Positions 32,266-35,565 of a DNA stretch of 40,175 bases are shown here, piece by piece. Each line of letters starts with the position of its first letter. The stretch's first letter is position 1. The notes under the pieces were generated by a model, which saw only the letters and a program-made list of their open reading frames with translations, had not been told where the DNA came from and did not search any database. The stretch covers positions 1-40,175 of the forward strand of contig JAMBEQ010000261.1 in NCBI GenBank assembly GCA_024506175.1, given 5' to 3'. The stretch is from Methylocystis sp. (GTDB lineage Bacteria > Pseudomonadota > Alphaproteobacteria > Rhizobiales > Beijerinckiaceae). The position numbers and the translations under genes were made by a program.

Positions 32266-33519
<1,254 letters not shown>

Positions 33520-33588
33520 GTGGGCCGCGTCTCTTTTTCGAACGGAAAACTTAAATAAATTAAAGAACGTGGTTCGGCGGAAAGCCGC

Positions 33589-34197
33589 TCAGCGATCGCG
33601 CAGGGGCGAGAAGCTCAAGCGATGGGCGGGGGAGGGCCCGCATTCGCGCAAGGCGTCGAGATGGCGGGGCGCCGCATAGCCGACATTGGTTTCAAACCCG
33701 TAGTTTGGAAAAACGGCGCTCAGCCGTCGCATCATGGCGTCGCGCGCGACTTTTGCGATGATCGACGCCGCGGCGATGGAAAGCGTCGAGGCGTCGCCCT
33801 TGACGATGGCGCGGCAGGGACAGGAAAGGCGCGGTGGGTCAGAGCCGTCAATGAGCGCATAGGCGGGCGCGTGAGACAGAGCGGAGACGGCGCGGACCAT
33901 CGCGGCGAGCGACGCCTGCCGGATGTTCATCGCGTCGATTTCGGCCGGGGTGACAAAGGCGACGCCAACCGCGACCGCCGTTTCCATGATTCGGTCGAAT
34001 GCGGTTTCCCGCTCCTTCTGGGTAAGCGCTTTCGAATCGTCGAGACCGCGCGGTAACCGCTTGGGATCGAGAATGACGGCGGCGGCGGCCACCGGCCCGG
34101 CGAGAGGGCCGCGACCGACTTCGTCGACGCCTGCAACGGGCCAAATCCCCTGCCGATACAGTCGGCCCTCGATGCGAAAATCCGGCCCTGCCGTCAT
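33589..34197 (-). CDS. rnhB: Ribonuclease HII
   Basis: A 202-residue nuclease that cuts RNA in RNA-DNA hybrids and removes misincorporated ribonucleotides. Catalytic acids are in GVDEVGRGPLAGPV (D and E) and in AYALIDGSD, with LDDSKALTQKERE as the second conserved block and SIAAASIIAKVARDAMM as the fourth. It ends with HRLSFSPLRDR, the usual RNase HII C-terminus. rnhB next to ccrM is a common alphaproteobacterial arrangement; here the radical SAM gene lies upstream on the same strand (107-bp gap). Confidence 0.95.
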   Translation of the reverse strand: MTAGPDFRIEGRLYRQGIWPVAGVDEVGRGPLAGPVAAAAVILDPKRLPRGLDDSKALTQKERETAFDRIMETAVAVGVAFVTPAEIDAMNIRQASLAAMVRAVSALSHAPAYALIDGSDPPRLSCPCRAIVKGDASTLSIAAASIIAKVARDAMMRRLSAVFPNYGFETNVGYAAPRHLDALRECGPSPAHRLSFSPLRDR

Positions 34198-34304
34198 AGG
34201 GTCAGGCTCGGGAGTTGGAGGAATTGGCGCGCGCGTTTACTCATAAGCTCTAGAAAGCGTTTGGCCGTCTCGTTGGCAAGAAAAATTGCCGTCGCCATGG
34301 ACTC

Positions 34305-35423
34305 TCAAAAAAGGCTGAGCTGCTGGGGCCCCTTGCGTGGCGGCTCGAAGAGATCGGAGCGCAATTTGAACGTAGAATTTGAAAAACCGAGGCGCTTCGC
34401 CGCCAGCTCGAAACGTCGGCCAATCATCCATGCATAGGGCCCCTCGCCAGTGAAACGTTTGCCGAAAGTGGGGTCGTACAGCTTGCCGCCGCGCGTCGAG
34501 CGCACGAGCGAGAGGGCGCGTCGGGCCTTGTCCGGGAAATGGGCGACGAGCCATTCGCTGAAGAGGTCGCGCACCTCGAGCGGCAGGCGCAGCATAATAT
34601 AGCCGGCTTCGCGCGCGCCCGCGGCATGGGCGCGCGCCAGGATCGCCTCCATCTCTTCGTCATTGATCGCGGGAACGACGGGCGCGATCATCACTGCAAC
34701 GGGCACGCCGGCGGCGGCGAGCTTTTCCATGGCGTCGAGACGGCGCTCTGGCGTGGCGGCGCGCGGCTCCATGGTTCGGGCAAGGCTTGGGTCGAGAGTC
34801 GTCACCGAAAAGGCGACCTTGGCGAGTCCGTCACGCGCCATTGGAGCCAGCAGATCGGCGTCGCGCAAGACGAGCGCCGATTTCGTGACAATCGCGACCG
34901 GATGTTTCGCGCGCGCCAGCACCTCCAGGATCGAGCGCATAATCCGGTGGCGCTTTTCCGAAGGCTGGTAAGGGTCGGTGTTCGTGCCGATGGCGATGAT
35001 TTTCGGAACATAATTCGGCGCTGAAAGCTCGCGCTCCAAAAGCGCGGCCGCGCCCTCTTTCACAAAAATCTCTGTTTCGAAATCGAGGCCAGGGGAGAAG
35101 CCGATATAGGCGTGCGTGGGCCGCGCGAAGCAATAGACGCAGCCGTGCTCGCAGCCGCGATAGGGATTAATGGAGCGGTCGAAGGCGATGTCGGGAGAAT
35201 CATTCTTCGTGATGATCGAGCGCGGTTTCTCGACGTGGATGTTGGTCTTCAGCGCCTCGAGGCTCTCGAGCGCGCCCCAGCCGTCGTCCGCCTCCTCGCG
35301 GATTTCCTTTTCATAGCGGCCGCTGCGCTTCGAAAGAGATCCGCGCCCGCGCCGCCGCTCGGGGTCGACCCGCGCTCCGATTTGCGCCTGCGCATCCGTC
35401 GAGATTTCAGCGAGCCGACCCAT
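34305..35423 (-). CDS. PA0069-family radical SAM protein with C-terminal clamp-binding motif
   Basis: A 372-residue radical SAM protein of the PA0069/Rv2578c family, distantly related to spore photoproduct lyase. The 4Fe-4S cluster motif is in NPYRGCEHGCVYCFARPTHA (C-x3-C-x2-C). The barrel continues with FSPGLDFETEIFVKE, IAIGTNTDPYQPSEK and VAFSVTTLDPSLARTMEP. The last residues are GPQQLSLF: QLSLF fits the bacterial beta-clamp-binding consensus QL(S/D)LF. The ATG has GGGAG 8 nt upstream. A GAAC-N7-GAAC LexA box lies 128 bp upstream. The enzyme's reaction is unknown; the cluster, motif and context point to DNA repair. Confidence 0.9.
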   Translation of the reverse strand: MGRLAEISTDAQAQIGARVDPERRRGRGSLSKRSGRYEKEIREEADDGWGALESLEALKTNIHVEKPRSIITKNDSPDIAFDRSINPYRGCEHGCVYCFARPTHAYIGFSPGLDFETEIFVKEGAAALLERELSAPNYVPKIIAIGTNTDPYQPSEKRHRIMRSILEVLARAKHPVAIVTKSALVLRDADLLAPMARDGLAKVAFSVTTLDPSLARTMEPRAATPERRLDAMEKLAAAGVPVAVMIAPVVPAINDEEMEAILARAHAAGAREAGYIMLRLPLEVRDLFSEWLVAHFPDKARRALSLVRSTRGGKLYDPTFGKRFTGEGPYAWMIGRRFELAAKRLGFSNSTFKLRSDLFEPPRKGPQQLSLF

Positions 35424-35550: not shown

Positions 35551-35565
35551 GAACGAATAAAGAAC
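35551..35565. promoter_or_regulatory. LexA box (GAAC-N7-GAAC)
   Basis: GAAC-GAATAAA-GAAC matches the alphaproteobacterial LexA-binding consensus exactly (GTTC-N7-GTTC on the other strand). It is embedded in two tandem copies of GAATAAAGAAC (35544-35565), one of the few AT-rich patches in this spacer. It sits between the minus-strand radical SAM gene (128 bp away) and the plus-strand small gene (137 bp away). Confidence 0.7.

Follow-up and report, generated by a model that had tools for sequence, protein, structure and literature searches.

The radical SAM proteins of the PA0069 family end in a short, conserved peptide of the type through which several proteins dock on DnaN, the bacterial sliding clamp. 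The member encoded in the window (the whole 40,175-nucleotide stretch of Methylocystis sp. DNA analysed here) has ...GPQQLSLF as its C-terminus, followed directly by a TGA stop at 34305-34307, and its QLSLF tail is real and beyond chance. We favour, with some reserve, a reading in which this protein is an SOS-induced radical SAM enzyme with the fold of spore photoproduct lyase (SPL) that is recruited to DnaN by its C-terminal tail and acts on DNA lesions. The features on which the argument draws, and two neighbouring genes on which it does not depend, are the following.

34305..35423, minus strand: coding sequence of the PA0069-family radical SAM protein (372 aa, predicted start; NF033668 at 543.7 bits and PF04055 at 70.5 bits)
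34308..34322, minus strand: C-terminal pentapeptide QLSLF of the clamp-binding type, residues 368-372 (from the sequence and its conservation in members)
34323..34343, minus strand: linker of variable sequence directly before the peptide, residues 361-367 (predicted coil of lower confidence, past the part aligned with the SPL fold)
34338..34349, minus strand: conserved F-x-x-P before the linker, residues 359-362 (F in 207/208 and P in 190/208 members)
35130..35153, minus strand: radical SAM [4Fe-4S] motif CxxxCxxC with C91, C95 and C98 (from the sequence; Cys fraction 1.0 in 208 members)
35551..35565, minus strand: putative LexA (SOS) box of the alphaproteobacterial type GTTC-N7-GTTC, GTTCTTTATTCGTTC (pattern match, conserved upstream in relatives)
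33589..34197, minus strand: rnhB (RNase HII), directly downstream of the radical SAM gene (presumed gene name, recognised from sequence)
32266..33444, minus strand: ccrM, downstream of the radical SAM gene (presumed gene name, recognised from sequence)

The first-pass annotation had placed the protein in the PA0069 family and read its end as QLSLF within 34305-34340. Both statements hold: the codons of the pentapeptide lie at 34308-34322, and the 543.7 bits scored with NF033668, the profile of the family, compare with a cut-off of 360. As this match runs over profile positions 1-348 of 348, the C-terminus belongs to the family model. The score with PF04055 (Radical_SAM; cut-off 29.5), together with the CxxxCxxC motif, puts the protein in the radical SAM superfamily. 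The next-best family is Rv2578c (NF038135), for which the window protein scores 231.6 bits with a cut-off of 430, and the nearest named relative found is a protein of Methylocystis sp. L43 that is 82% identical.

Conservation of the C-terminal peptide

Members were collected in two sets of loci that overlap in part. Together they gave 219 loci, of which 213 were readable, corresponding to 208 distinct proteins (the window protein included) once five exact duplicates had been removed. Left out of the 208, besides these duplicates, are L142, L143, L077 (frame-shifted tail) and six loci that the search pattern could not read; a Q-x-x-L-[LF] tail is present in each of these six when read separately. 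The sample leans to high scorers, the best-scoring genomes having been taken first, and 30 weak scorers were added. In L077 the C-terminal tail is out of frame and the neighbouring frame reads GDQLPLL followed by a stop, the result of either a sequencing error or a recent loss.

In a MAFFT-anchored alignment of the 208 proteins, made without using the motif as an anchor, the Gln of the motif is present in 208/208 and the Leu at position 4 in 204/208, the four others having Phe there. Conservation of QLxLF at the C-terminus of the family was the comparison that could have overturned the clamp-docking prediction of the first-pass annotation, and it came out in its favour. In the same alignment, position 2 is L in 157 members, M in 23 and G in 17, and position 5 is F in 118, L in 78, I in six and G in three. 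Taken as whole tails, 174/208 proteins carry a Q[LIVMA]x[LM][FLI] pentamer and six a hexamer (QLTLGL twice, QLSLGL, QIALPF, QLGLPI and QLRLDF); 23 fit only Q-x-x-[LM]-[FL], their second residue falling outside the set of the pentamer. Seventeen of these last read QGxLF (QGSLF, QGELF, for instance), with Gly where the strict consensus has an aliphatic residue. The remaining five fall elsewhere, four of them being Q-x-x-F-[LF] and one a QLNLF with seven residues after it. The motif sits at the exact C-terminus in 179/203 cases and is followed by 1-6 residues in the other 24, so that it is not merely the end of the chain.

Among 22 members from the same class and the wider phylum, which are 47-62% identical to the window protein, Q352 and L355 (alignment numbering) are invariant and are preceded by a gap-rich linker. 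The invariant Leu, with its six codons, and Gln, with its two, show synonymous codon changes among members, which point to selection acting on the peptide.

The tail is also found among weakly scoring proteins. In the sample of 30 weak-scoring genomes, 21 hold a member over the cut-off, and 20 of these 21 keep a Q-x-x-L/hydrophobic tail, some in a loose form (QAALF, QMHLW, QRSLF). The one over-cut-off weak member without the motif (L259) ends in KKELPQT and lacks the GTTC-N7-GTTC box; its genome measures about 1.4 Mb. Nine weak loci lie below the cut-off: three of them (L276, L277, L278) end without the motif, the C-terminal pieces of two broken or split copies (L271, L273) end in QAELF and QINLF, and four (L272, L274, L275, L279), whose C-terminus is unreadable, were left out of the tail tally. 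Gene copies with in-frame stops or split matches occur at L274, L275 and L268 (genomes G065, G385 and G695).

These residues are those of published clamp-binding peptides. Natural DnaN-binding motifs have the form Q-phi-x-[L/M]-[F/L] or Q-phi-x-[L/M]-x-[F/L], with Leu, Phe or Ile tolerated as the last residue, and are sometimes located in C-terminal tails, according to a review (PMC11139829). The equation of QLSLF with this consensus was thus correct, and 181/208 tails of the family are canonical in the same sense, in a count that allows Met and a final Ile. Both known forms of the peptide, QLxLF and QLxLGL, occur among the family tails.

That a five-residue motif is short is the one point in favour of a coincidence limited to one protein, a reading whose probability we consider negligible and which was rejected on the conservation across 208 members and on controls that fall far lower. 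Shuffling the last 30 residues gives an expectation of 2.68 canonical and 7.78 core motifs per 208 proteins, against 181 canonical and 202 core motifs observed in the last 14 residues. Orthologues of the neighbouring genes at the same loci give 4/66 canonical motifs for rnhB, 0/21 for ccrM and no core motif for either. Shuffling and these orthologues replaced a background computed from neighbouring ORFs (0/441 pentamers, one hexamer, two core motifs), which is unreliable because some of these "ORFs" are shadows on the antisense strand of GC-rich DNA; the same shadow ORFs spoiled a clustering of the neighbourhoods. Finally, none of eight further radical SAM proteins encoded in the genome that the window comes from (eight loci out of 19 match rows) has a clamp-type tail.

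Distribution, LexA boxes and gene neighbourhood

A PA0069-family member over the cut-off was found in 200 of the 385 alphaproteobacterial genomes sampled, i.e., about half; across the phylum, 171 of 398 sampled genomes have a PA0069 match. Five relatives from outside the Pseudomonadota were read, four actinobacterial and one from the Gemmatimonadota; a fifth actinobacterial locus, the second from Nonomuraea (L230), yielded no ORF with the patterns used. All four actinobacterial Rv2578c-type proteins (L228, L246, L247, L248) carry a related end, QLTLL, QLRLL, QESLF and QEPLF, respectively, the last two departing from the strict consensus by a Glu in place of the aliphatic residue, and the Gemmatirosa relative (L229) ends in QLSLGI. 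As far as we could look, the clamp tail would therefore extend to the sister Rv2578c branch, in the few proteins read.

Other radical SAM relatives end differently. The clamp tail is absent from proteins of the mobile-pair type or like it (L232, L277, L278) and from L233, L234 and L276. The genomes G283 and G506, each with a PA0069 match of its own, encode an SPL-like protein (L280) and two SPL-family proteins (L281, L286); these three end in ILYWT, VRYAF and VRYAF, without a clamp peptide, and no GTTC-N7-GTTC box was found upstream of their genes. Among the radical SAM relatives read, the tail is thus a property of the PA0069 branch, with the extension to the sister branch noted above. Viral contigs gave ten loci: three (L236, L237, L239) run off the contig ahead of their C-terminus, L238 ends in QLDLFDLAS, five (L240, L241, L242, L244, L245) show other tails and L243 was left out. 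Ten phage records contained only partial matches, none covering 80% of the query. A Dulem virus 36 gene annotated as "PA0069 family radical SAM protein" (PP511521.1, 51787-52227) matches 41% of the query at 27.8% identity and is probably a distant relative named too closely.

The window's LexA box GTTCTTTATTCGTTC lies about 128 nt upstream of the predicted ATG. The first-pass annotation had relied on this box, which is not significant when considered alone, since GTTC-N7-GTTC matches twice in the window with 1.4 matches expected; what stands is its conservation, since 97/108 and 77/80 alphaproteobacterial loci have a box of this type in the 400 nt before the gene (1.30 and 0.88 expected, respectively). 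It is likewise found upstream in 4/7 weak alphaproteobacterial loci, for 0.06 expected. At loci from other classes, CTGT-N8-ACAG occurs in 13/38 (0.14 expected) and no such box is seen in 25/38. Close to the start of the gene, two of the four actinobacterial Rv2578c-type loci carry a GAAC-N4-GTTC site, the pattern of the Gram-positive SOS box, in a count made without a shuffled control. The LexA-box count could cover one of the five relatives from outside the Pseudomonadota (L247) and found none there. Since the clamp tail is kept where no LexA box is seen, the tail is more conserved than the box.

From these upstream sequences, the family appears to be under LexA/SOS control and hence induced by DNA damage. 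Regulation of this kind has been proposed before: LexA control of splB was predicted in alpha- and beta-proteobacteria (PMC3323433), and COG1533 SplB is counted among the SOS genes of several groups, Bacteroidetes being one of them (PMC8565304). As SOS control of splB-type genes (COG1533) is already published, the regulatory part of the present proposal is not new.

In the window, the radical SAM gene is followed on the same strand by two genes that we take to be rnhB and ccrM, in this order, the three spanning 32266-35423. Of 80 loci of relatives, 66 likewise have rnhB downstream in the same orientation, and 25 have ccrM within the flank of about 3 kb. Two plasmid loci have other neighbours. 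On a Sphingomonas plasmid (L235, 4419-6984), the PA0069 gene has a gene annotated as dnaE close by, on the opposite strand and separated from it by one small ORF, and on a Legionella adelaidensis plasmid (L231, 1284-2822), PolX is the divergent neighbour of the PA0069 gene.

Fold and chemistry compared with spore photoproduct lyase

To our knowledge, lesion repair by radical SAM enzymes is known mainly from the spore photoproduct in germinating spores. The homology to SPL claimed in the first-pass annotation survives at the level of the predicted fold. An AlphaFold2 model of the window protein, computed from 39 sequences (pLDDT 77.8, pTM 0.78, residues 1-56 below 50), has SPL entries as its six best PDB matches (Foldseek E-values of 1.2e-9 to 4.6e-8; Z 19.5-20.0), and the next fold match is lipoyl synthase, with Z 15.4. 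Sequence comparisons go the other way: the protein scores 21.3 bits with TIGR04070 (spore photoproduct lyase), whose cut-off is 400, and 18.8 bits with PF20903, whose cut-off is 27, and a PDB search with the sequence profile of the family returned no SPL entry up to an E-value of 1, its best match being 6efn (E 0.0012).

The catalytic residues differ as well. The H-donor cysteine of SPL is presumably C141 in B. subtilis, and C140 mutants are named in the titles of SPL PDB entries. In a sequence alignment of low identity, its position is occupied by Thr147 in the window protein and by T, A, V, I, G or S in relatives, never by Cys in 23 rows; in the same alignment, the SPL-like protein L280 does have Cys there. 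Beyond the three cluster cysteines, no cysteine is conserved in the 208 members. All 208 members keep a Tyr immediately ahead of the third cluster Cys; the residue that comes next, the counterpart of Tyr99, the second relay Tyr of SPL, is Phe in 177/208 and Tyr in 31/208. With the H-donor Cys missing and Tyr99 mostly replaced by Phe, the chemistry must differ from that of SPL, and the absence of this Cys also means that the spore photoproduct is not to be assumed as the substrate. Judging from the alignments and the model, the window protein would resemble SPL in its action at most in outline, and it is not classed as an SPL.

Candidate function and relation to known systems

The tail very probably binds DnaN, given the peptide sequence and its conservation. 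Two other readings of the conserved end would dispense with the clamp, and both seem very improbable to us. SOS proteins are often proteolysed, and a motif with hydrophobic residues last, located at the exact C-terminus in most members, might be a degradation tag or another C-terminal signal, such as one for protease recognition in post-SOS turnover; the most invariant residue is nevertheless the internal Gln, residues may follow the motif, and penta- and hexameric forms interchange as they do in clamp peptides. As for the tail being a structural element that packs on the protein's own barrel or on a dimer partner, the region just before it does look ordered: the model has a pLDDT of 90 for residues 351-360, which include most of the F-x-x-P, and from this value and the conservation of its Phe and Pro, this segment probably packs. 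Further along, the confidence drops to 65 for residues 361-370 and 44 for residues 371-372, all of 361-372 being predicted as C-terminal coil, which argues against packing of the tail, though weakly, the model being a monomer without ligand and a lower pLDDT not being proof of disorder. The distance from the Phe to the Gln is 9 in 174/208 members, as a packed element might have it, but lies between 6 and 19 in the others, and some members have the extra residues after the motif. The columns between the F-x-x-P and the Gln are variable in sequence, more so than the linker is in length, the distance being mostly 9. The alignment of the model to SPL stops at residue 351/352, so that linker and peptide come on top of the SPL fold. 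What speaks most strongly for clamp binding over degradation or packing is that the family uses the residue alphabet of clamp peptides and switches, as they do, between penta- and hexameric forms.

Binding of the clamp by the tail would also be compatible with an enzyme that modifies an undamaged base or nucleotide, or that works alongside translesion synthesis as a regulator or accessory factor. We regard this as unlikely, though a good deal less so than the two preceding readings. The loss of the SPL H-donor Cys and, mostly, of Tyr99 speaks for it, as does the label "hypoth_equivalog" of NF033668, which comes without a stated function; SplB-like radical SAM proteins have in addition been placed in operons with ImuB-C domains and mutagenesis-related factors (PMC3765255). 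Against it stand the conservation of LexA boxes across a wide distance and the fact that the nearest fold is that of a DNA lesion repair enzyme. That the enzyme acts on DNA is likely in our estimation, and we lean slightly towards lesion reversal rather than other DNA chemistry.

Under the preferred reading, an SOS-induced and clamp-recruited enzyme acting on lesions, derepression by LexA would lead to synthesis of the enzyme, whose folded part would bind damaged DNA. SAM would be cleaved at the [4Fe-4S] cluster, yielding a 5'-deoxyadenosyl radical that would reverse or process a base lesion. Meanwhile, the five or six residues at the end of the chain (Q-hydrophobic-x-L-F/L or Q-hydrophobic-x-L-x-F/L/I) would enter the hydrophobic cleft of DnaN, and this docking may enrich the enzyme at forks and in post-replicative gaps, where it would compete with polymerases and MutS. 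A broader view, which we put forward only tentatively and with some doubt, is that the PA0069 and Rv2578c families form a widespread, fork-tied direct-reversal system, induced by the SOS response, docked on DnaN and using a radical route that does without the SPL cysteine, which would undo a replication-blocking lesion while competing with translesion polymerases for the clamp.

The first-pass annotation had further supposed such an enzyme to be undescribed. This does not hold for its regulation, in view of the splB and COG1533 accounts cited above, and stands for the peptide: no report of a clamp peptide in a radical SAM enzyme, or of a radical SAM partner of the clamp, was found in the open-licence literature. 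Open-licence papers on radical SAM together with the sliding clamp, considered by title and start of abstract, included none on a clamp-docked radical SAM enzyme; no open-licence papers were found for PA0069 with radical SAM or for Rv2578c with LexA; and among the matches listed for SplB, COG1533, DnaN and clamp, none held SplB or COG1533. The main text of the clamp review, in its available part, names no radical SAM enzyme (PMC11139829). As far as these searches reach, the new part is the clamp tail alone, SOS control having been known before.

Four known systems can thus be set beside the PA0069 family. The SOS-regulated splB/COG1533 genes belong to the same broad gene group under LexA control, though perhaps not to this exact family, and the available parts of both make no mention of a clamp peptide (PMC3323433, PMC8565304). 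Rv2578c (NF038135) shares with the window protein a C-terminal clamp-type peptide, in 4/4 proteins read, and the library descriptions of PA0069 and Rv2578c give neither a function nor this peptide. SPL/SplB (PDB 4FHC, 4FHF, 4K9R) has the nearest fold, with 266-271 residues aligned, and the same radical SAM cluster motif, but it is only 13-16% identical to the window protein, and its Cys H-donor has no counterpart here. Finally, E. coli Pol II (TLMTGQLGLF, with QLGLF), Pol IV (RQLVLGL, with QLVLGL) and Pol III alpha carry C-terminal clamp peptides (PMC11139829) of the same class as those of the PA0069 family, at the same tail-end position and in both penta- and hexameric forms; unlike the radical SAM enzymes of the family, these are all polymerases. 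If the proposed function is correct, the PA0069 proteins would be a new class of enzyme among the partners of DnaN, and the ways of dealing with lesions at the fork would gain a direct-reversal branch.
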